A DNA stretch of 64,000 nt, from contig NZ_CP139976.1 of NCBI RefSeq assembly GCF_034424625.1, forward strand, positions 1,426,001 through 1,490,000, read 5' to 3'. The translations under genes were made by a program, and so were the position numbers. Shown here one piece after another: positions 2-35,465 of this stretch (position 1 is its first letter; every line of letters starts with the position of its first letter). Source of the DNA: Janthinobacterium lividum. Its GTDB lineage: Bacteria; Pseudomonadota; Gammaproteobacteria; Burkholderiales; Burkholderiaceae_D. Below the pieces are notes generated by a model. The model ran no database searches. It was not told the DNA's origin and worked only from the letters and a program-made list of their open reading frames with translations.

Positions 2-223
2 CGCTGGCTGCTGCTGGATTTTTCCGACGACGGCATCGGCCTCGCGCCGGCCGTGCGCGAGCATATGTTTGAACCGTTTTTCACCACCAAGCGGGGCCAG
101 GGCGGCTCCGGCCTGGGCATGCACATCGTCTACACGATCGTGCAGCAACTGGGCGGCCAGGTGTGCGCCATCGACAGCACTCCCGGCTGTCATATACAGA
201 TCAGGCTGCCGCTGGCCGGCTAG
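2..223 (+). CDS. Sensor histidine kinase, C-terminal ATPase part (5' truncated)
   Basis: This is the last 73 residues of a two-component sensor kinase whose 5' part lies outside the window. The visible part is the C-terminal half of an HATPase_c domain. It shows the G1 box (DDGIGL), an F-box-like EPFFTTK, and the G2 box (GGSGLGMHIV), followed by the usual final beta strand ending at the TAG stop. These bind ATP for autophosphorylation of a histidine located upstream of the window. The input domain, and so the signal, cannot be judged. The next gene, a TonB-dependent receptor, is 310 bp away and is not obviously in the same operon. Confidence 0.9.
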   Translation, partial: RWLLLDFSDDGIGLAPAVREHMFEPFFTTKRGQGGSGLGMHIVYTIVQQLGGQVCAIDSTPGCHIQIRLPLAG

Positions 224-25034: not shown

Positions 25035-27881
25035 TCAGAACTTGTACTTCACCCCCGCGCTGATGAAGCGTCCTGCCGCGCCCGCGTAGTCGAGCGGGTT
25101 GTAGCCCGTGGCGCCATATGTGAGCGGATCGAGCGGGGCGATCTTGTCGAACAGGTTTTGCACCGTTGCAAACACTTCCAGCTTGGGCGTGGCCAGCCAG
25201 CGGGCCGTCAGGTCCACCGTGGTGAACGAGGCGATGCGGCAGCCGCGAGGGGCATCCGTGCCGTCGGCGAAATGCGTGGCGCAGCCGTCCGGATCATTCT
25301 TGAACAGCACGTTGTCGAGCGGCGCGCGGTAGTTGAGGTTGGCCGTGACCCGCCAGTCCTGGCGCTCCCAGGTGGCACCCAGGTTGATGCGGTCGTCCGG
25401 CGTGCCCATGCAGTTGGACACATCGCAATTGCCATGCGTGCCGGCAAAATCGCGTTGCGTGCCATCCTGCTCCGTGCGCAGCCATTTGTACAAGTGCGTC
25501 CATTTCAGGTCGAACACCAGGCTGCCATAGTCGCTGCCCAGGCTGAAGCGCTGACGCGCGTCGATATCGATGCCGCGCACCGTCGTTTGCGCCGAATTCA
25601 CATAATTGGCCAGCACGGCCGTGATGGCACCCGGATCGCCGGCGATGCCCGTGGCCGTCGACGGGTCGCGCGCCACATGGCCTTCGGCGATGGCGGTGTC
25701 CGTTTGCTCCTGGTTGATTTCATTCTTGCGGCGGATTTGCCACAGATCCACGGAAATACTGGTGCGCGGCAGCGGGTCCCACACGGCGCCCACGGAATAG
25801 CTGCGCGAACGTTCGGGCGACAGCTTGGGATTGGGCGACGTGATGACGGCGATGGAGGCGGGATCGCAAGCCGCTTCCACGCCGAGCCCGCAGCGCAGCG
25901 GATCGCTGGCGGTGGAAAACGCGGCCAGGCCGCCGACGCCGTTTTCCGCCGCGCTGGGCGCGCGGAAGCCCTTGGCGAAGGTGCCGCGCAGGGCCAGTTC
26001 GCGCACGGGCGTCCATTTCACGCCCGCTTTCGGGGTATAGGAATTGCCCACGTCGGTGAAATGGTCGGCGCGCAGCGCGCCCGACAGTTCCACGGTTTTC
26101 AGCACGGGCGCCAGCACCTCGGCATAGATGGCCGAGGCATTGCGGCTGCCCTTGTAGGCGGAATAGCCGAGGCCAATGATATTGCCCCGTTCCGTGCCCG
26201 TGGTAGGTTTCAGTTCGGTCGATTCGTGGCGGAATTCGGCGCCCACGGCCACGCCCAGGCCGCCGCCGTCCAGCTTGGCCACCTCGCGGCTGGCCTTGAA
26301 GTCGATCTGCGCGATATGCGTCTTGGCATCGTTGGAAATGCGCGGCGACAGGGCCGCGTACAGCTCGGCTGAGTTGAGGCCTGCGTTTTCCGCGATGCGC
26401 CACAGGCTGCCGGCCGGCAGGGCTGCATACGCGGGGTTCAGGCTGGCCGCCGCCACATTCGCGGTAGTCGGGTTGAGCAGGGCGAAGGCGACGTCGCGCT
26501 GCAGGTAGCCGTTCAAGTCGTTCGACACCTTGTTCTGCGAGTACAGCAAGGCGCTGTCGATATCCCAGCCCGCCAACGCGCCCTTGATGCCGGCGACAAA
26601 GCGCGTGAAGGTGGAATTGACTTCCGACAGGCGCGGCCCCACGTCGGCGGCCAGGTAGCGCAGCCGCGCCGCCGTGCCGAAATACGGATTGTCCGGGTGG
26701 GCGGCACCGAGCGACACGCCCGCATTGCTGACAGGGCCGCCCGGGTAGCCGACCGAGCCGCTGACCGTCGATGGCGTGGTGGCCGAGTGCGATTCGCTGT
26801 GATATACGTTCAATTCGGCATACGTCTGCAACGCTGGCGTCAGTTGCCAGGCGGCGCGGCCAAAGAAATTGATGTTCTTCTGTTTCGGCTGGATCTGGCC
26901 GTATTGTTGCGCCGCATCGGTCAGGCAGCCGCCGCCCGGGTCGCCTTGCGGGTGCGTGGTGAAGTTGCCGCAGGCGGCGCCGGGGAAGGCGCGCGTAAAA
27001 CCCGCGCCGGCGAGATTGCCGCGGTTGTAGTAGTCGAGCGTGTCGGGATTGCGCACATTGCCATTGACGGCGCTGCCGGCCGCATTGTTGGTGGTGATGG
27101 CGCCCGCGCCGCTGAGCGACTCCTGCGCGCTGAAGCCCAGGTCGCGCAAGTCGCTGCGGCCGACGGCACCCCGCCCGGCCCGGTCGCGGTTCCAGATGGC
27201 GGCCTTTTCGCTGTATTCGAGATTCAGCAGCACGTTGTAGCGGTCGCTGTCGATGTCGCCGAAGCCGTGCGTGATGGCGGCGCGCGCGTCGCGCCCATCC
27301 CATTCCTTGGTCTTGCCGTAATTGCCCTTGATGGCCGTGCCCTGGTAGTCGCGCCGCAGGATCACGTTGACCACGCCGGCGATGGCATCCGAACCGTAGA
27401 TGGCCGAGGCGCCATCCTTGAGGATTTCCACCCGTTCCACCGCTTCCAGGGGAATGATGTTCAGGTCGGCAAACACTTTCTGGCCATCGTCGGCCAGGCC
27501 GTACGGCGCCACCCTGCGGCCATTCAGCAAGACCAGGGTCGAGGCCGTGCCGAGGCCCCGCAGCGACACGCCGGAAGCACCGGCGGCAAAGCCATTGCCG
27601 AAGGACGTGGGCACGGAACCCTGGTTGTCGACGGCCAGGGTCTGCAGCAGTTCGGCCACGCTGGACTTGCCCGACTTTTCAATGTCGGCCGCGTTCAGGG
27701 TTTGTACGGCTGAAGCCGTTTCCGCCTGCGCGCGGCGGATGTTCGAGCCGGTGATTTCCACGCGGGCAATCGGCGCGGCATCCTGCGCCAGGACGGGTAG
27801 ACTCAGCAGCGCACTGGCCAGTGCCAGGCCCAGTCTGGGTGGTGAAAAGGTGGTGGACTGTAAGGATGGTGTCGGGATCAT
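25035..27881 (-). CDS. TonB-dependent outer-membrane receptor
   Basis: A 948-residue receptor. The ATG at 27881 has GGAG 6 nt upstream and gives a signal peptide ending ...LLSLPVLAQ. The N-terminal segment ARVEITGSNIRRAQAETASAV precedes the plug (LLQTLAVDNQG, VSLRGLGTASTLVLLNGRRVAPYG, VERVEILKDGASAIYGSDAIAGVVNVIL; quoted separately). The barrel ends with FISAGVKYKF. It belongs to the same subgroup as the frameshifted receptor at 35518-38321 (both have GLADDGQK/ARADDGQK-type plug segments and DPLTYG near the end). Substrate unknown. It is convergent with tldD and divergent from the aroG leader. Confidence 0.92.
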   Translation of the reverse strand: MIPTPSLQSTTFSPPRLGLALASALLSLPVLAQDAAPIARVEITGSNIRRAQAETASAVQTLNAADIEKSGKSSVAELLQTLAVDNQGSVPTSFGNGFAAGASGVSLRGLGTASTLVLLNGRRVAPYGLADDGQKVFADLNIIPLEAVERVEILKDGASAIYGSDAIAGVVNVILRRDYQGTAIKGNYGKTKEWDGRDARAAITHGFGDIDSDRYNVLLNLEYSEKAAIWNRDRAGRGAVGRSDLRDLGFSAQESLSGAGAITTNNAAGSAVNGNVRNPDTLDYYNRGNLAGAGFTRAFPGAACGNFTTHPQGDPGGGCLTDAAQQYGQIQPKQKNINFFGRAAWQLTPALQTYAELNVYHSESHSATTPSTVSGSVGYPGGPVSNAGVSLGAAHPDNPYFGTAARLRYLAADVGPRLSEVNSTFTRFVAGIKGALAGWDIDSALLYSQNKVSNDLNGYLQRDVAFALLNPTTANVAAASLNPAYAALPAGSLWRIAENAGLNSAELYAALSPRISNDAKTHIAQIDFKASREVAKLDGGGLGVAVGAEFRHESTELKPTTGTERGNIIGLGYSAYKGSRNASAIYAEVLAPVLKTVELSGALRADHFTDVGNSYTPKAGVKWTPVRELALRGTFAKGFRAPSAAENGVGGLAAFSTASDPLRCGLGVEAACDPASIAVITSPNPKLSPERSRSYSVGAVWDPLPRTSISVDLWQIRRKNEINQEQTDTAIAEGHVARDPSTATGIAGDPGAITAVLANYVNSAQTTVRGIDIDARQRFSLGSDYGSLVFDLKWTHLYKWLRTEQDGTQRDFAGTHGNCDVSNCMGTPDDRINLGATWERQDWRVTANLNYRAPLDNVLFKNDPDGCATHFADGTDAPRGCRIASFTTVDLTARWLATPKLEVFATVQNLFDKIAPLDPLTYGATGYNPLDYAGAAGRFISAGVKYKF

Positions 27882-28163
27882 GCGGTTCTCCGGAAAGGTC
27901 AGGCAGTCAAAGGTCATCGATACGTCCTTGAGTTTTCTCCGTCCCGCGACGCTGGAATTGATCTAGATCAAGTAGTGCCTCGCTTCTCGTCGATAGAATG
28001 GCTGGCGTGGCGTGGTTGCCACGACGGACACAGCGGTGGCGTCCGGTATGCAGAGTCGCAGCGCAGATGCACAGCGAGAGTCATAGCGCGCAACTTTTTA
28101 TGCTTTTTTGCGTGTTGTGCAGTGTAAAACGGCGGTGGCATGCGGCTTTGCCGACAAATATGC
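27882..28163. other. Divergent promoter region between receptor and aroG
   Basis: This region holds the upstream sequence of the receptor (minus strand) and of aroG (plus strand). No gene is supported. The sequence ATTGATCTAGATCAAGTA near 27957-27974 contains the palindrome TTGATCTAGATCAA, a candidate operator for a dimeric regulator, about 75 bp upstream of the receptor start. Confidence 0.5.
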
Positions 28164-28193
28164 TTGCCAACCCTTGCAATTTAGGTTTATAGT
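28164..28193 (+). promoter_or_regulatory. Predicted sigma-70 promoter for the aroG leader
   Basis: TTGCCA at 28164-28169 (5 of 6 match to TTGACA) and TATAGT at 28188-28193 (5 of 6 match to TATAAT) are separated by 18 bp. Transcription would start near 28200, immediately before the leader peptide, giving a leader of about 200 nt before aroG. Confidence 0.65.
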
Positions 28194-28209
28194 CGTTCAT
28201 CACTTACGG

Positions 28210-28287
28210 ATGACTCGCATGTTCGCTCGCCACTTTTTTACCGCTTATTTTTACTTTAGCAATTCCAACCCAAAGGCGGTGGAGTAG
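28210..28287 (+). CDS. Phe/Tyr-rich leader peptide of aroG attenuator
   Basis: A 25-codon open frame with five Phe and two Tyr codons, most clustered in HFFTAYFYF (residues 8-16), ending in a TAG stop. A second in-frame ATG at 28219 has GGA 8 nt upstream and may be the real start. Ribosome stalling at the Phe/Tyr codons would report shortage of charged tRNA-Phe or tRNA-Tyr. The peptide itself needs no function. The gene is too short for normal gene callers but its composition, position and overlap with pairing RNA segments fit an attenuator leader. Confidence 0.8.
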   Translation: MTRMFARHFFTAYFYFSNSNPKAVE

Positions 28288-28361
28288 CGGTCGGTTCACG
28301 TAGCAGCAAAACGAGATCCCAGCAAATTCTAAAAAACCGCCACTCATGGCGGTTTTTTTTT
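28240..28361 (+). promoter_or_regulatory. Four-segment transcription attenuator upstream of aroG
   Basis: Segment 1, ACCGCTT (28240-28246), lies within the Phe/Tyr codons and can pair with segment 2 (AAGGCGGT, 28273-28280). Segment 2 can instead pair with segment 3 (ACCGCC, 28336-28341). Segment 3 pairs with segment 4 (GGCGGT, 28348-28353) to make a terminator with a T-tract. When the ribosome stalls on segment 1, 2:3 forms and transcription continues into aroG; with ample aromatic amino acids 1:2 and 3:4 form and transcription stops. Confidence 0.78.
28331..28361 (+). terminator. Attenuator terminator hairpin
   Basis: Stem CCGCCA/TGGCGG (28337-28342, 28347-28352) closes on a CTCA loop. Six A on the left extend the pairing into the nine-T tract on the right. 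It lies 40 bp before the aroG start codon, so it must be read through for expression. Confidence 0.9.
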
Positions 28362-28401
28362 ACCCAGATGTTTTACCCATCCTTAAATTTTGGAGAAAAT
28401 G

Positions 28402-29466
28402 ATGCCCCGCACCGATGATTTGCGTATTCGCGAAATGAAGGAATTGACCCCGCCGTCCCACCTGATCCGCGAATTTGCCTGCTCGGAGCAAGCCGAACAG
28501 ACCGCTGCCAGCGCCCGCATTGCCCTGCACCGTATCCTGCATGGCCAGGACGACCGCCTGATGGTGGTGATCGGGCCTTGCTCCATCCACGATACCAAGG
28601 CGGCCATGGAATATGCGGGTCTGCTGGTCAAGGAGCGCGCGCGTTTCGCGGGCGAACTGGAAATCGTCATGCGCGTGTACTTCGAGAAGCCGCGCACCAC
28701 GGTGGGATGGAAGGGCCTGATCAACGATCCGTACATGGACAACAGCTTCCGCATCAACGACGGCTTGCGCATGGCGCGCGAACTGTTGCGCGATATCAAT
28801 GAGCTGGGTTTGCCGGCTGGCACCGAGTTCCTCGACGTGATCAGCCCGCAATACATCGCTGACCTGATCAGCTGGGGCGCCATCGGCGCGCGCACGACGG
28901 AATCGCAGGTGCACCGCGAGCTGGCGTCGGGGCTGTCCTGTCCGGTCGGCTTCAAGAATGGCACGGACGGCAATGTGAAGATCGCCGTGGAAGCCATCAA
29001 GGCCGCTTCGCAGCCGCACCATTTTCTTTCCGTCACGAAGGGCGGCCACTCGGCCATCGTCTCGACCAACGGCAACGAGGATTGCCACATCATCTTGCGC
29101 GGCGGGAAAACCCCGAACTATGACGCAGCCAGCGTGGACGAGGCGTGCAAGGCCATCGCGGCACAAGGCCTGGCGGCGCGCCTGATGATCGACGCCTCGC
29201 ATGCGAACAGCTCGAAAAAACCGGAAAACCAGATCCCCGTGTGCGCCGACATCGCCAGCCAGGTGGCGGCGGGCGATGGCCGCATCGTTGGCGTGATGGT
29301 GGAATCGCACCTGGTGGCGGGACGCCAGGATTTGATCCCGGGCAAGGAATTGATCTATGGCCAGTCTGTCACGGATGGCTGCATCGACTGGAGCGCCAGC
29401 GTGGCCGTGCTGGAAAACCTGGCGGCGGCCGTGAAGCAGCGCCGCTTGCAGGGCGACGCGGAATAA
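28402..29466 (+). CDS. aroG: 3-deoxy-7-phosphoheptulonate (DAHP) synthase, AroG type
   Basis: A 354-residue class I DAHP synthase that condenses phosphoenolpyruvate and erythrose-4-phosphate in the first step of the shikimate pathway. Motifs: MVVIGPCSIHD, RVYFEKPRTTVGWKGLINDP, WGAIGARTTESQVHRELASG, LSCPVGFKNGTDG, and ILRGGKTPNY. The region around LASGLSCPVGF and HHFLSVTKGGHSAIV resembles the Phe-sensitive AroG isoenzyme of E. coli more than the Tyr-sensitive AroF, in keeping with its Phe-rich attenuator. GGAG lies 6 nt upstream of the ATG at 28402; an ATG just before it is also possible. Erythrose-4-phosphate is a transketolase product (tkt is in this window). Confidence 0.96.
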   Translation: MPRTDDLRIREMKELTPPSHLIREFACSEQAEQTAASARIALHRILHGQDDRLMVVIGPCSIHDTKAAMEYAGLLVKERARFAGELEIVMRVYFEKPRTTVGWKGLINDPYMDNSFRINDGLRMARELLRDINELGLPAGTEFLDVISPQYIADLISWGAIGARTTESQVHRELASGLSCPVGFKNGTDGNVKIAVEAIKAASQPHHFLSVTKGGHSAIVSTNGNEDCHIILRGGKTPNYDAASVDEACKAIAAQGLAARLMIDASHANSSKKPENQIPVCADIASQVAAGDGRIVGVMVESHLVAGRQDLIPGKELIYGQSVTDGCIDWSASVAVLENLAAAVKQRRLQGDAE

Positions 29467-29652: not shown

Positions 29653-32304
29653 TTAGAACTTGTAGGTAGCGCGCACGTAGAAAGTACGGCCCAGCGGATC
29701 AGCGTAACGCGGATCGTAGCCGGACTGGAATGTGCCGATCTGGTTACTGAACGGTGGATCTTCGTTCAGCAGGTTTTTCACGCCCACGGTGACTTCGGTG
29801 TTCTTGAAGCCCGAGTACGCGCCCGACAGCGACCATACCGAGTAAGCCTTGACGCTTTGCTCGAATTGCGGATCGACATAATTCTGGTCGCGGTAGCCGC
29901 TCATGTACTTGTTCGACAGCGTGGCATTCCACTTGCCCATATTCCATTGCAGGGAGGCATTGTGTCTCCAGCGGAATACCGGTGCATTGTCGCCATACAC
30001 GCCCACGTTTTGCACGAATTCACCGCCGCGCTCATTCTGGTACTCATACTTCTGTACCCAGGTGCCATCGAAGTTGAAGGTGAAGTTGCCGTACTGGCTG
30101 CGTGGCAATTTCCAGTTCAGGCCCAGGTCGATGCCCGAAGTGTGCATTTCGCCAAGGTTGCCCAGGGTCGCCAGCACGTAATCGAGCTTGCCGTCAGCCG
30201 TGTAGATGAAGTTGCTTTGATATTTATCGTAGTTGTCGAACAGGGTCTGTTCGGCCACGGTGCCGATCTTGTCGCGCAGCTTGATTTTGAAGTAATCGAG
30301 CGAGACGGTCAGCGATTTCGTCGGTTCGATGACGATACCGGCGCTGAAGGTTTTCGATTTTTCCGGGCCGACGTCCGGATTACCGCCCGAACGGATGTAT
30401 TGCTGCGCGCCGCAGGCGACGTTGCTGTTGGCGCCAGGGATCGGTACGCCGCCTGGGCACAGGCGTGGATCGTCATACTTGTTGGCCGTGAAGGTCTTGG
30501 TTTGCGGACCATGCAGGTCATACAGCGTTGGCGCGCGGAAACCTGTGTTGTAGGAGCCGCGCAGCAGCACCTGGCTCGTTGGCTGCCAGCGCACGCCGAC
30601 TTTCGGGTTGAAGCTGCCGCCGACGTCGTTGTAGTGGTCATAACGGGCTGCCAGAGACAGTTCCAGGTCTTTCACGACAGGAATGCTCAGTTCCGAGAAG
30701 ATGGCGGCGATGTTGCGGCTGCCCGACTGGTTCTGCGCTTCGGCGTAGCCGGAGCTCGATGCCTGGCCAGCCAGGTCGCGGTTCACATTGTATTCCGCCT
30801 TGTCGTTGCGGAATTCCGTACCGACGGCGAAACCGACGGCGCCTGCCGGCAGGGTGAACAGCTCACGGCTGACTTTGGCGTCGACCGCAGTGCTGGTCAT
30901 CTTGGCGCTCAGGTACTCGCCTTTCAGGACGGAGTCATTCAGGTAGGCCTGGCCGGCGGCGCTTTGCTCGCCGAACGGGTTCAGGATACCATTGCCGATA
31001 CCGTCGATGATGCGCTGGTCATTCAGGTAGCCGCCCGTGAAGGCGCTGGTGGCCTTGCTGACGGAGTAGCTCAGGCCGACGTTGTAGTCCCATGCGCCCA
31101 GGACGCCTTCGGAAGCCAGTACCAGGCGATCCGAGGTGCTGGTGTCGAAACCGCTGCGCTGGCCCGACGCCACTGGACGCCAGCTGATGTCCAGCGGCTC
31201 GCCCGACAGGCCTGCCATGGCTGGCACACCGCCGCTGCCGCCCGGGTAGTACGGCGAGCTCGACGACATGAGGATGCCGATGTTCGACATCGGCGGCGGC
31301 GAGATGCGCGCTTCGTTGGTGCTGCGCGAGTGCAGGTATTCGATGGTGGCCAGGTGATCCTGGTTCAGCTTGAAGCTGGCCTTGCCCAGGAAGGATTCCT
31401 GCTGGGTTTTCGGAATGGCCTGGATGAATGGCGTGACATCCATGGCGCACGTGCTCTTGCCCGAGGTATTCTTGTACAGGTTTTCACCCACGCAACCGCC
31501 GGCAAAGGCTGGGTTGCCGATCAGGCCATTGCCCGTATCGTAGAAGTTGGCCGGGAAGGTGGTGCCGCTCAGGTTATCCACGCCCTTGCTCGGGATGTAG
31601 CCGCTCTTCGAGAAGGAACGGTCGGCCGTGCTCAGCGCCGACTGGCGATGTACGTCGACAACACCGAAGACGTTGAAGCCATCTTTGTTCAGGTCGCCAT
31701 AGCCGCCGGACAGGTTCAGGCGCGACTCGTCGCCGCCGCCCGATTTCTGTGGCTCGTAATGTTCGACCGTGACGGAGCCGCCTTTGACGGAACGCTTGGT
31801 GATGAAGTTGATCACGCCGCCGATGGCGTCGGTGCCGTAGATGGCGGAAGCGCCGTCACGCAGCACTTCGACGCGCTCCAGGGCGGAAATCGGGATGATG
31901 TTCAGGTCGACAGACGAACCGTTGAACGGGTGGCTGGCGATACGGCGGCCGTTCAGCAGGACCAGGGTCTTGTCGCCGCCGATGCCGCGCAGGTCGGCGA
32001 CGGACTGGCCGCCAGTACCGGAACCAACGGATTGCGAGCTGCTTTGCGAGCTCTGGTTCATGGAAATGGTGGACAGGACTTCTTGCGCCGTCGTCAAGCC
32101 TTGCTTGGCGAAATCGTCGGCCTTGATCGAGGTGATCGGCAGCGCTGTTTCCGATGCCAGACGCTTGATGCTCGAACCGGTGACTTCCACGCGTTGCATG
32201 GGGCTTTCTGTTGTTTCTTGTGCATACGCGGCGTGCATGCTCAGGGCCATGCCGCCTGCAAACATCAGGCGCAGCGACCGCGATATTACATTTTCTATCA
32301 TCAT
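29653..32304 (-). CDS. TonB-dependent outer-membrane receptor (tandem paralogue A)
   Basis: An 883-residue receptor. The ATG at 32304 has AAGGAA 6 nt upstream and begins MMIENVISRSLRLMFAGGMA, a signal peptide ending ...HAAYAQ. Plug features: MQRVEVTGSSIKRLASETA, DDFAKQGLTTAQEVLSTI, VADLRGIGGDKTLVLLNGRR, VEVLRDGASAIYGTDAIGGV. The barrel ends FYVRATYKF. It is closely related to the next receptor upstream (32662-35337), sharing the same N-terminal and plug motifs and the C-terminal NLLNEDPPFSNQ/NLLDKEPPFSNQ, so the pair probably arose by tandem duplication. Substrate unknown. Confidence 0.93.
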   Translation of the reverse strand: MMIENVISRSLRLMFAGGMALSMHAAYAQETTESPMQRVEVTGSSIKRLASETALPITSIKADDFAKQGLTTAQEVLSTISMNQSSQSSSQSVGSGTGGQSVADLRGIGGDKTLVLLNGRRIASHPFNGSSVDLNIIPISALERVEVLRDGASAIYGTDAIGGVINFITKRSVKGGSVTVEHYEPQKSGGGDESRLNLSGGYGDLNKDGFNVFGVVDVHRQSALSTADRSFSKSGYIPSKGVDNLSGTTFPANFYDTGNGLIGNPAFAGGCVGENLYKNTSGKSTCAMDVTPFIQAIPKTQQESFLGKASFKLNQDHLATIEYLHSRSTNEARISPPPMSNIGILMSSSSPYYPGGSGGVPAMAGLSGEPLDISWRPVASGQRSGFDTSTSDRLVLASEGVLGAWDYNVGLSYSVSKATSAFTGGYLNDQRIIDGIGNGILNPFGEQSAAGQAYLNDSVLKGEYLSAKMTSTAVDAKVSRELFTLPAGAVGFAVGTEFRNDKAEYNVNRDLAGQASSSGYAEAQNQSGSRNIAAIFSELSIPVVKDLELSLAARYDHYNDVGGSFNPKVGVRWQPTSQVLLRGSYNTGFRAPTLYDLHGPQTKTFTANKYDDPRLCPGGVPIPGANSNVACGAQQYIRSGGNPDVGPEKSKTFSAGIVIEPTKSLTVSLDYFKIKLRDKIGTVAEQTLFDNYDKYQSNFIYTADGKLDYVLATLGNLGEMHTSGIDLGLNWKLPRSQYGNFTFNFDGTWVQKYEYQNERGGEFVQNVGVYGDNAPVFRWRHNASLQWNMGKWNATLSNKYMSGYRDQNYVDPQFEQSVKAYSVWSLSGAYSGFKNTEVTVGVKNLLNEDPPFSNQIGTFQSGYDPRYADPLGRTFYVRATYKF

Positions 32305-32661
32305 CTGAAATTCCTTGTTATTGTGATAAAGGCGGCAATTATTTTGAAATAACTTGTTGCTAACCAACAATTTATTTGCCTTTTTGAAAATCCACCAATG
32401 AAAATTCTGTAAATTTTCAGGGCCCTCATCAAAACATTCACGATTCAGATTGTCAATTTCGCGCGGACTTTTTGGACGAAATGCAACATTTCCCTGTTTT
32501 TTTTATAATCCTTCAGTAATAAAGTATCGCGAACCCTTGTCAGACTTGCTCAGATGCGTAAAATAAAACGGCGCACATCATCGCTGATGGCGCCGCTTTT
32601 CTGTCGCTGGTACGCTGTTGCCAGCGCTGCCTGTTTTATTTGCCGATCTGAATTTCTCTCC
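32305..32661. other. Intergenic region between tandem receptors
   Basis: These 357 bp hold the promoter region of the receptor ending at 29653, AT-rich with several T-tracts between about 32330 and 32530, and the terminator of the next receptor at 32569-32595. No gene is supported. Confidence 0.5.
32563..32600 (-). terminator. Intrinsic terminator of receptor 32662-35337
   Basis: Stem CGGCGC/GCGCCG (32569-32574, 32590-32595) is extended by CATCA/TGATG around a TCGC loop with one bulged A. On the minus strand it is followed by TTTTATTT, as expected for the end of the receptor transcript. Confidence 0.85.
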
Positions 32662-35337
32662 TTAAAACGTATAGCTGCCGCGCAGGTACCAGGCGCGCCC
32701 GATCGGGTCCGTATAGCGCGGGTCATAGCCTTTCTGGAACAAGGTGCCCTGGTTCGAAAACGGCGGCTCCTTGTCCAGCAGGTTCTTCACGCCGGCCGTC
32801 AGCAGCAAGCCTTTCCACGCATAGCTGCCCGACAGCCCAAGCAGGCTGTACGAGGGCACATCGTGCCGGTATGGCGGCGCGACCAGATTCTGGTCCGTGT
32901 AGCCGGACTTGAACGATTGCGACAAGGTGGCGCCCCAGTTACCCTTGCGCCAGTTCAGCGCCGCCGTATGCTTCCAGCGAAACACGGGATTGTTGTCCGC
33001 ATAGCGGCCCACGTTGGCGATGAAGACGCCGCCGCGCTCGTTCTGGTAGTCGTACTTGCGGGTCCAGGTGCCATCGACCGATACGCTGACATCGCCATAC
33101 GCGCCGCGTCCCAGCCGCGCATTCAGGCTGACATCGATGCCGTCCGTTTTCACTTCACCGAGGTTGTCGTTCAGGTCGAGAATGGCGTAGGGCGAACCGT
33201 CGGGATTGCGCAGGAATAAGGCCTTGTATTTCTCGTAGTTGCCGAAGATCGATTGCTCGGGCAAGGATGCAATCTTGTCCTTCAGATGGATGTTCCAGTA
33301 ATCGATGGCCACCGTCACTTCCTTCACCGGTTCGAGCACCAGGCCGAAGGCGAACGTGGTGGATTTTTCCGGTTTCAGGTTTTCATTGCCGCCTTGTAGC
33401 TTGAACTGCTGCAAGTCGCAATCGCGCAAGGGATTGGCACCGGGCTGCGGCACGCCACCGGGGCACAGGATCGGGTCGTCATAGCTATCGTTGGTATCGT
33501 TCTTCGACGGCGGCGCATTCTTTTCAAACAGGGTGGGGGCGCGGAAACCCGTGCTGGCCGAGCCGCGCAGCACCAGCGCGCTGCTGGCCTGGTAGCGCAG
33601 GGCCAGCTTGGGATTGGTGGTGCTGCCCACGTCGCTGTAATGGTCGAAACGGGCGGCCAACTGCACTTCCAGGTCCTTGATCAGCGGCAAGTTGATTTCG
33701 CCGAAGACGGCCTGGATCGTGCGCGCGCCGCTCTTCGACAGCGAGCCGGACAAGCCGGAACTGGCGGCCTGGCCGGCGATATCGCGGTTCACGTTGAAGT
33801 AGGCCTTTTCGCGCCGCACTTCGCCGCCGAGCGCGATGGCCAGCGGGCCGCCGGCCAGCTGCATCAGATCGCGGCTGCCCTTGAGGTCGACACCCGTGGT
33901 GGTGACTTTGGCGTTCTGCACTTCGCCGCGCAGGGCCGTGCTGGCCAGGTAAGCCTTGCCGGCCGCATCCTGCACGCCAAACGGGTTCAGGATGCCGCTC
34001 AGCACGCCAGCGGCAAAGCCCGCATCCTGCACATAGCCGTTCGTGAACTTTTCCGACGACTTGCTGATCGCATGGCTGAGCCCCGTCTTGTAATCCCAGC
34101 CAGCCAGTTCGCCTTCCAGCGCCAGCACCAGGCGGTCGGCCTTGCCGGTGGAATCGATTTGCCGCTGGCCTGCCTCGACGGGACGCCAGTTGACGCTCAG
34201 GGGCTGGCCCGACAAGCCTGGCTGGGCTGGCACGCCACCCGCATTGCCCGGATAGTAGGGGCTGGTGCTGGGCAGGATCAAGCCCGTTTGCGGCGGCGGT
34301 GCCGTGCGCGCCTTGACCTTGTTTTCCGAATGCAGATATTCCAGCGTAGCCAGGTGGCCGCCACCGAGCTTGAAGGCGCTCTTGCCGAAGAAAGCCAGTT
34401 GTTGCTGGGCCGGCAAGTCGTCGATCTGGCGCGTGTAATCCTGGCGGCAAGTGCCATTCGCCGGCACGGCCGGCACCGACAGCGGCGGCAGGCAGCCGCT
34501 GGCCGCGTAGGGGTTGCCAGCCAGGCCGTCGCCGCCGTTGGCCGCCGCATCGAAGTAATTGCCGGGGAAAGTCGTGCCACTGGTAATGGACAGGCCGCGC
34601 GAGGGAACGATGCCGGTGGCCGAGAAGGCGCGGTCTTGCGAGGTCAGCACTTTTTGCTTGTGATAGTCGAGCACGCCAAAAATATTGTAGCCATCGGTGT
34701 CGAGCTCGCCATAGCCCGTCGACAGGTTGATGCGGTGCTCGCCGCCGCCCTTGTGCTGTGGGGCAACGACCTCGGCGGTGATATTCGTGACGTTGACGGA
34801 GCGCTTCGTGATGAAATTGATGACGCCGCCGATGGCGTCCGTGCCGTAGATGGCCGAGGCGCCGTCGCGCAGCACTTCGACCCGTTCCAGGGCGGCGATG
34901 GGAATGATGTTCAGGTCGACACTGGCGCCGTCATACGGATGGTTGGCGATGCGCCGGCCATTGAGCAGCACCAGCGTCTTGTCGCCGCCCAGACCGCGCA
35001 AGTCGGCGCTGGCCTGGCCGCCCGTGGGCAAGCCGCTGGTATTGCCGCCCACGGCATTGCCGCTGCCCATGCTCGACGCATTCGAGGGGATCCTGGCCAG
35101 CACTTCCTGGGCCGTCGTCAAGCCCTGCTTGGCGAAATCCTCGGCCTTGAAGATGGACAGGGGCGTCGCCGTTTCCGAGACGAGGCGCTTGATGGAGGAA
35201 CCGGTGACTTCGACTCTTTGCATGGCGGGCGTGCCGGCTGCGTCGGTTTCCTGCGCCATGGCCGCATGGCCGAACGCGCCGAGCAAGGCTGCGCACAGCA
35301 GGCGCAAGGTAGGGGAGGGACTGCGGGTTTGCGTCAT
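32662..35337 (-). CDS. TonB-dependent outer-membrane receptor (tandem paralogue B)
   Basis: An 891-residue receptor. AGGAG 6 nt upstream supports the ATG at 35337 (MTQTRSPSPTLRLLCAALLG), with a signal peptide ending ...GHAAMAQ. The plug carries MQRVEVTGSSIKRLVSETA, FKAEDFAKQGLTTAQEVLAR, SADLRGLGGDKTLVLLNGRR and VEVLRDGASAIYGTDAIGGV. The barrel ends WYLRGSYTF, with C-terminal Phe. It is a tandem paralogue of the receptor downstream. Divergence between the two is concentrated in extracellular-loop-like segments of the barrel, which suggests different ligands; this is inferred by eye. Confidence 0.93.
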   Translation of the reverse strand: MTQTRSPSPTLRLLCAALLGAFGHAAMAQETDAAGTPAMQRVEVTGSSIKRLVSETATPLSIFKAEDFAKQGLTTAQEVLARIPSNASSMGSGNAVGGNTSGLPTGGQASADLRGLGGDKTLVLLNGRRIANHPYDGASVDLNIIPIAALERVEVLRDGASAIYGTDAIGGVINFITKRSVNVTNITAEVVAPQHKGGGEHRINLSTGYGELDTDGYNIFGVLDYHKQKVLTSQDRAFSATGIVPSRGLSITSGTTFPGNYFDAAANGGDGLAGNPYAASGCLPPLSVPAVPANGTCRQDYTRQIDDLPAQQQLAFFGKSAFKLGGGHLATLEYLHSENKVKARTAPPPQTGLILPSTSPYYPGNAGGVPAQPGLSGQPLSVNWRPVEAGQRQIDSTGKADRLVLALEGELAGWDYKTGLSHAISKSSEKFTNGYVQDAGFAAGVLSGILNPFGVQDAAGKAYLASTALRGEVQNAKVTTTGVDLKGSRDLMQLAGGPLAIALGGEVRREKAYFNVNRDIAGQAASSGLSGSLSKSGARTIQAVFGEINLPLIKDLEVQLAARFDHYSDVGSTTNPKLALRYQASSALVLRGSASTGFRAPTLFEKNAPPSKNDTNDSYDDPILCPGGVPQPGANPLRDCDLQQFKLQGGNENLKPEKSTTFAFGLVLEPVKEVTVAIDYWNIHLKDKIASLPEQSIFGNYEKYKALFLRNPDGSPYAILDLNDNLGEVKTDGIDVSLNARLGRGAYGDVSVSVDGTWTRKYDYQNERGGVFIANVGRYADNNPVFRWKHTAALNWRKGNWGATLSQSFKSGYTDQNLVAPPYRHDVPSYSLLGLSGSYAWKGLLLTAGVKNLLDKEPPFSNQGTLFQKGYDPRYTDPIGRAWYLRGSYTF

Positions 35338-35465
35338 CTGACACTCCTGTGGCATGGTCATGGGCCAAGTGGCTTGCAAGGGAGTTTTACAGGCGCGCAG
35401 GAGATAAGGTTTGCGCTGGCGCAATAGGCGTGTGGATGAGTGAACTGGCGCCACAGTCGCCGACG

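Follow-up and report, generated by a model that had tools for sequence, protein, structure and literature searches.

In the pheL-pheA leader (Rfam Phe_leader, RF01859) a Phe-rich frame is followed by competing RNA hairpins and a U-run terminator before pheA. The trp attenuator (Trp_leader, RF00513) is built from four RNA segments and has its leader stop codon close to the second of them, and the ilvGMEDA and thrABC leaders each hold codons for several end products within one leader. DAHP synthase is the point of carbon entry into aromatic synthesis, and its best-known control (TyrR, TrpR and enzyme feedback) comes from enteric bacteria. Older comparative work on proteobacterial attenuators is reportedly found in Panina 2001 and Vitreschak 2004.

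Attenuation of a DAHP synthase gene is not a new idea, since it has been proposed for Acholeplasma aroF and predicted for a Vibrio DAHP synthase-tyrA operon. In Acholeplasma, the candidate upstream frame uORFC-13-1 contains at least one Phe codon and lies, with a terminator, before the DAHP synthase gene aroF; by the text description of this motif in PMC8632094, on which our comparison is based, its 24 representatives are from Acholeplasma and environmental sources. In Vibrio, attenuation of the operon of a Tyr-type DAHP synthase gene and tyrA is a database prediction given in a table only (PMC1173090, the part listing this operon).

Here we describe an element before aroG, found in a 64-kb window (the whole stretch of DNA analysed), that is very probably a ribosome-mediated transcription attenuator of the trp/pheA type, controlling aroG through the charging of tRNA-Phe and tRNA-Tyr. 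The element resembles the pheL-pheA leader in its Phe-rich frame, competing hairpins, U-run terminator and downstream biosynthetic gene, but the gene here is aroG, Tyr is as prominent as Phe, and sequence and structure differ (23.5 bits against a gathering score of 55 for RF01859). With the trp operon leader it shares the four-segment logic and a stop codon near segment 2, whereas it scores only 14.7 bits against 41 for RF00513, concerns other amino acids and precedes a single gene rather than an operon. It is similar to the ilvGMEDA and thrABC leaders in holding codons for several end products, theirs being branched-chain amino acids or Thr/Ile and those here aromatic. An Rfam search of the whole window found no family of any kind at its gathering score, neither a known Phe leader nor a T-box leader among them. 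Searches of open-access papers yielded no report of an aroG leader in Burkholderiales and no gene-level account of the control of this step in that order; the main text of PMC2965389 does not mention aroG. As far as these searches show, this set of aroG leaders appears to be new.

Results

The aroG locus and its leader

The product of the downstream gene scores above the cut-off of the NCBIfam model NF006723 (AroG) in a profile search, and its best solved relatives in a structure-database comparison are entries named DAHP synthetase and phenylalanine-regulated DAHP synthase, which we take to be the E. coli proteins. Judged from its sequence, the protein is AroG. The closest relatives of the gene in named genomes are from Janthinobacterium (Oxalobacteraceae, Burkholderiales), at 99% identity. 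The gene is solitary and is flanked on the minus strand by TonB-dependent receptor genes at 25035-27917 and 29653-32370; a third large gene of this type, also on the minus strand, follows at 32662-35454. The second DAHP synthase gene of the same genome (L002, 51% identity) has no comparable leader. The parts of the element and the gene that it precedes are as follows.

28164..28193, plus strand: putative sigma-70-type promoter of the leader transcript, TTGCCA-18-TATAGT, 10/12 consensus matches
28208..28210, plus strand: probable ribosome binding site GGA, 8 nt 5' of the ATG at 28219, recognized by sequence
28219..28287, plus strand: leader peptide frame MFARHFFTAYFYFSNSNPKAVE, 22 codons; an alternative start at 28210 gives 25 codons
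28246..28257, plus strand: putative decisive regulatory codons Tyr-Phe-Tyr-Phe, directly 5' of stem 1, from the codon table of 65 distinct leaders
28259..28270, plus strand: RNA segment 1, the 5' arm of stem 1:2; stem formed in 92.7% of cells, at -10.2 kcal/mol when forced
28275..28288, plus strand: RNA segment 2, pairing with segment 1 via 28278-28288 or with segment 3 via 28275-28285
28326..28341, plus strand: RNA segment 3, the 3' arm of antiterminator 2:3; from 28331 also the 5' arm of the terminator
28331..28361, plus strand: intrinsic terminator 3:4 with nine T at 28353-28361, -15.3 kcal/mol
28402..29466, plus strand: aroG, class I DAHP synthase; start at ATG 28399 or 28402, the second being kept in aligned relatives such as L006

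Comparison with the rest of the window places the leader above chance. Among 1755 short frames of 10-40 codons on both strands of the 64-kb window, at least six Phe/Tyr in nine residues were found only in frames ending at this leader stop; at least five were found at two stops, and a terminator follows only the one of the aroG leader. The leader also folds better than 200 of 200 shuffled versions (z -3.27).

The promoter and the terminator with its run of nine T had both been proposed in an initial sequence-only reading of this DNA, and both were borne out at the positions listed above; the simple scan that showed the promoter did not list 28331-28361. Of 76 distinct upstream regions from close relatives, 74 contain a loose form of the promoter, TTGCNN-16..18-NANNNT. 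GGA or GGG stands 5-16 nt before the leader ATG in 51 of the 76, a triplet that is not rare by chance.

Conservation was then examined in 110 aroG loci, comprising our own, the best 80 of 587 stretches confirmed in named records, and the 29 remaining loci among the 30 best of the relatives search. These loci are close relatives by selection, and 94 of their 108 leaders are distinct. Of the 110 loci, 109 have a short frame with five or more Phe/Tyr in a nine-residue stretch and 108 have the ACCGCC...GGCGGT terminator pattern, so that frame and terminator together precede aroG in 108; L022 has neither, and L049 misses only the terminator pattern. The proposed attenuation thus survived a search among homologous aroG leaders for examples without the frame or the pairings.

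The leader frame and its aromatic codons

The frame had originally been read as 25 codons rich in Phe and Tyr. Translation of 28210-28287 gives MTRMFARHFFTAYFYFSNSNPKAVE, and its five Phe and two Tyr stand as described. The proposed length does not, since ATG 28219 is kept in aligned relatives and ATG 28210 is not (ATA in L006, ATT in L107); the leader most likely begins at 28219 and has 22 rather than 25 codons. Three of the leader peptides were compared with NCBIfam and Pfam, and no fitting model was found.

To compare codon usage across leaders, a table was built in which the anchor of each leader is a Phe codon with AGC or TGC directly after it. All 88 leaders could be anchored in this way, 65 of them distinct, and codon -1 is always Phe in this table because the anchor is itself a Phe codon. 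Codons -2, -3 and -4 before stem 1 are aromatic in 98, 95 and 85% of the 65 distinct leaders, and codons -5, -6 and -7 in 46, 25 and 94%; the aromatic codons are most constant immediately before stem 1. Codon -2 is Tyr in 59, Trp in 5 and His in 1. The amino acids sensed in this species are, by inference from these codons, Phe and Tyr. Control by tRNA-Phe, and perhaps by tRNA-Tyr, had been suggested at the outset; conservation supports the attenuation that this implies, while the "perhaps" for Tyr was too weak, since Tyr is as conserved as Phe in the putative decisive codons.

Trp codons were found in 19 of 34 divergent leaders, a set made up of 31 from other families and 3 from genomes of the own family that are negative for the covariance model R1 described below. 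Some of the 34 are near copies, and L155 is absent because the search pattern missed its terminator, leader and terminator being visible on reading.

The leaders also differ from two genes of the window in their choice of Phe codon. They use TTT 236 times and TTC 56 times, with TTT at codon -1 in 65 of 65 distinct leaders, and the two genes combined show the opposite preference (27 TTC, 13 TTT). This excess of TTT could reflect slow codons or a requirement for unpaired U.

Alternative RNA pairings

Pairing was counted in an alignment (A2) of 47 chosen Oxalobacteraceae-type leaders, a selection and not all leaders. Stem 1:2 (28259-28270 with 28278-28288) is paired in 92.7% of cells, the two terminator helices in 100% and 97.1%, and stems 1:2 and 3:4 jointly in 95.7%. 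Conserved segment 1 begins at the second base past the last Phe codon, and the leader stop codon TAG (28285-28287) lies inside segment 2. Pair 28262-28285 of stem 1:2 is open in 21/47 leaders. Two pairs of stem 1:2, in one leader each, and one pair in each terminator helix are changed on both sides; these four compare with 1.4 in shuffles, and only 2 of 500 shuffles reach four. The number of pair types in the two stems is no greater than in shuffles (329/500 reach the count). Arms of stem 1:2, which hardly vary, showed no excess over swapped partners within the family (1522 and 544 of 2000 swaps as good).

Segment 1 had initially been placed at ACCGC (28240-28244), pairing with GCGGT and overlapping the Phe/Tyr codons. 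This placement was not retained. In the 47 relatives the five ACCGC/GCGGT pairs are formed in only 60.0% of cells, with zero compensatory changes, and the forced energies are -10.2 kcal/mol for the conserved stem 1:2 and -4.9 kcal/mol for these pairs; segment 1 instead follows just after the aromatic run. RNAalifold on the 47 leaders recovered the terminator but gave only a small hairpin in place of stem 1:2, so the counted structure was set by hand from pairwise duplexes, and for that reason it tends to beat slid versions. As the conserved stem 1:2, ACCGC/GCGGT was rejected (six slid versions of it gave 46-56%). A longer version of this helix is contained in the minimum-energy fold of the leader as a lone sequence, and it may represent an extra pairing in this species.

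The proposed 2:3 core, GGCGGU/ACCGCC, is present here and kept in the 47 relatives save for one G-U and one gap. No core pair is changed on both sides; being hardly variable, the core neither covaries nor breaks. Next to it, the four extension columns (28281-28285 with 28326-28330) are paired in 72.5% of cells and tend to change together, GGAG occurring with UUCU or UCC, GGAA with UUCC and GAAA with UUUC. When partners were swapped among 74 leaders, 2 of 2000 swaps were as good for the extension, or 16 of 2000 with identical pairs counted once. The same family test on the helix including the core was weaker (67 of 2000, and 183 of 2000 on distinct pairs). A cross-family test on 42 leaders, namely the 34 divergent ones and 8 chosen others, gave a mean of -18.88 kcal/mol for own partners against -16.99 kcal/mol for swapped ones (sd 0.41), with 0 of 5000 swaps as good, although the own partner was better than the mean foreign one in only 27/42 leaders. 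Four leaders in which segment 2 or 3 seems to have been picked wrongly by the automatic procedure (L142, L151, L173, L196) were retained in this test, and kinship among leaders can add to any signal from partner swaps. Across segments 1-4, stems 1:2 and 3:4 show some compensatory changes and helix 2:3 has matched-partner support, its core not covarying.

Fold predictions agree with competition between these pairings. For 28268-28341, with most of segment 1 hidden and segment 4 not yet made, RNAfold predicts the extended 2:3 helix (-17.2 kcal/mol). Adding segment 4 (28268-28361) makes the terminator the favoured fold at -24.4 kcal/mol, so that, as in trp, the order in which the segments are made would decide between the two. 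With segment 2 covered, the terminator is predicted to form alone at -15.7 kcal/mol.

Distribution of the leader

A covariance model (R1) built from 47 Oxalobacteraceae-type leaders, partly from the family then searched, matches 234/245 genomes of the GTDB family, and all 30 loci fetched from this search have aroG within the same 3-kb stretch. Of the 11 negative genomes, 3 lack an aroG hit. Inspection of the other 8 revealed divergent leaders in three (L173-L175), none in three (L171, L172, L177), a contig end in L176 and a partial locus in L178. In the order, 41 of 200 genomes have an R1 match with E no higher than 0.01, and 34 of these matches precede aroG (5 in the family, 8 more, and 21 of 28 fetched; the remaining 7 of the 28 do not). 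Outside the family, 6 of the 9 matches under 32 bits are without aroG, and so is the 35-bit match L192. Reading of 19 of the 20 genomes from other families with a match in the relatives search uncovered a leader in six (L142, L143, L149, L151, L154, L155) and none in 13; aroG without a leader therefore exists, in these 13 of 19 representatives and in L022, L171, L172 and L177.

Many of the genomes found by a wider model (R2) had also served to train it (L173 and L198 were left out of its training alignment, A3), and its counts are for this reason a measure of spread rather than independent proof. Of the 200 order genomes, 130 match aroG itself with E no higher than 1e-120, and 47 match R2; comparison of the two sets by eye places 46 of the 47 on the strand of an aroG match and no more than 150 nt 5' of it. 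Against 229 genomes of the class R2 gave six matches, three in the order, two in one outside family and one weak match without aroG; the two from outside the order adjoin aroG genes of 69-72% identity and belong to a single family. In the family that includes G419 and has the Burkholderia-type leader in common with it, R2 matches 75/100 genomes, counted by model match alone. Five of these matches are weak, with E from 1e-8 to 1e-4, and all 25 genomes without a match are 2.8 Mb or less. A search of a plasmid collection with the leader DNA gave no match.

Several individual loci deserve mention. L161 (G193:C1:1200-2600) carries the leader twice on a single contig, one copy about 1 kb into it and preceding aroG, the other some 10 kb before its far end; this is possibly a true duplication or an assembly matter. 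In L022, L171, L172, L146 and L148, the leaderless aroG lies behind a frame that by eye ends in VGVGQPTLR...TVGGT, presumably the C-terminal end of TldD, and in L167 a similar VGVGQPTLR-like frame end precedes leader and aroG. Loss or gain of the leader may be linked to read-through from this upstream gene.

Discussion

From the arrangement of these parts we infer where transcription starts, that the leader is translated, where the ribosome stalls and how the element responds to amino acids. Transcription would begin near 28200, and a ribosome on the 22-codon leader would trail the RNA polymerase. With charged Phe- and Tyr-tRNA at hand, the ribosome would reach the stop codon at 28285 and cover segment 2, the terminator 3:4 would form and aroG would be off. 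When Phe- or Tyr-tRNA is scarce, the ribosome would stall on Tyr-Phe-Tyr-Phe (28246-28257) and cover segment 1, leaving 28275-28285 to pair with 28326-28341; this 2:3 pairing would prevent the terminator, and aroG would be made. Without translation, stems 1:2 and 3:4 would both form and transcription would stop.

Other readings of the element make different demands on the leader peptide and on aroG. In TnaC-type systems the nascent peptide stalls the ribosome upon binding of a free amino acid in the exit tunnel, and a conserved leader peptide could likewise arrest translation when free Phe or Tyr, and not uncharged tRNA, is sensed. The peptide past the aromatic run is indeed well conserved (SxSxPxAVE in many Oxalobacteraceae, PLADREG in the Burkholderia-type leaders), but the same stretch encodes stem 1 and segment 2, and its conservation, coinciding with RNA pairing, needs no peptide function. 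The N-terminal part and the order of aromatic residues vary as well (Tyr, Phe, Trp or His at -4; Tyr, Trp or His at -2), and we consider peptide arrest very unlikely. Nor is it at all probable that the leader Phe and Tyr codons serve as a general sensor of translation or growth rate, coupling aroG to the overall speed of translation. Because the leaders are rich in TTT and the two window genes prefer TTC, the leader Phe codons may be slow, which would suit such a sensor; the codons, however, specify end products of the pathway that AroG opens (Phe and Tyr, joined in relatives by Trp) and are not slow codons for other amino acids.

The terminator might also end a separate small RNA, with or without a leader peptide acting in trans, in which case aroG would have its own downstream promoter and any control in cis would be incidental. 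Attenuator leader peptides can act in trans, as described for peTrpL of Sinorhizobium (PMC7298713). A simple consensus scan of 27900-28700, however, found a sole promoter-like site, the one before the leader, and the element is tied to aroG, as the 46 of 47 adjacent R2 matches in the 200 order genomes indicate. A small RNA of this kind seems to us a slim prospect, and attenuation in cis through tRNA-Phe and tRNA-Tyr remains our preferred reading.

A search of the own genome returned no match to the TyrR domain (TIGR04381) or to TrpR (PF01371), an E. coli control being positive for both. PMC5343134 states that neither TyrR nor TrpR occurs outside the gammaproteobacteria as that paper defines the class. 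Taken with the Trp codons in many leaders, these observations suggest that end-product control of the first aromatic step has passed to attenuation. A broader proposal, which we hold to be about evenly balanced, is that the aroG leader senses all aromatic amino acids throughout the lineage, its last aromatic codons (for Phe and Tyr, and in many lineages also for Trp) adjusting DAHP synthase to the scarce end product. In Burkholderiales, and in one or more families beyond that order, it would then stand in for the TyrR and TrpR of enteric bacteria. With model matches in 234/245 genomes of the own family and 75/100 of the family with the Burkholderia-type leader, the attenuator offers a direct and testable answer to the question of how the first step is controlled.

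Reporter data exist for Ralstonia solanacearum, a member of the same order. In the reporter results of PMC6379268, deletion of aroG2 raised aroG1-lacZ activity from 47 to 702 Miller units (approximately 15-fold), and 1 mM Phe lowered the latter value to 316. An aroG2-lacZ fusion behaved alike (49 to 1072, and 353 with Phe), while Phe did little in the wild type (47 to 40); the authors describe these results as promoter activity. The data are compatible with attenuation, should the upstream regions of that species hold the leader, and are not specific to it.

The leaders form a natural series with Phe, Tyr and Trp codons exchanged for one another at constant positions, and should be useful for locating the sensing codon. 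Six leaders (L092, L079, L080, L021, L015 and L028) have the aromatic codons and a frame that, after or within the run, differs from that of close relatives and leads to a stop elsewhere, in L092 about 66 nt before aroG. These are either natural variants of stop position or base-run errors.
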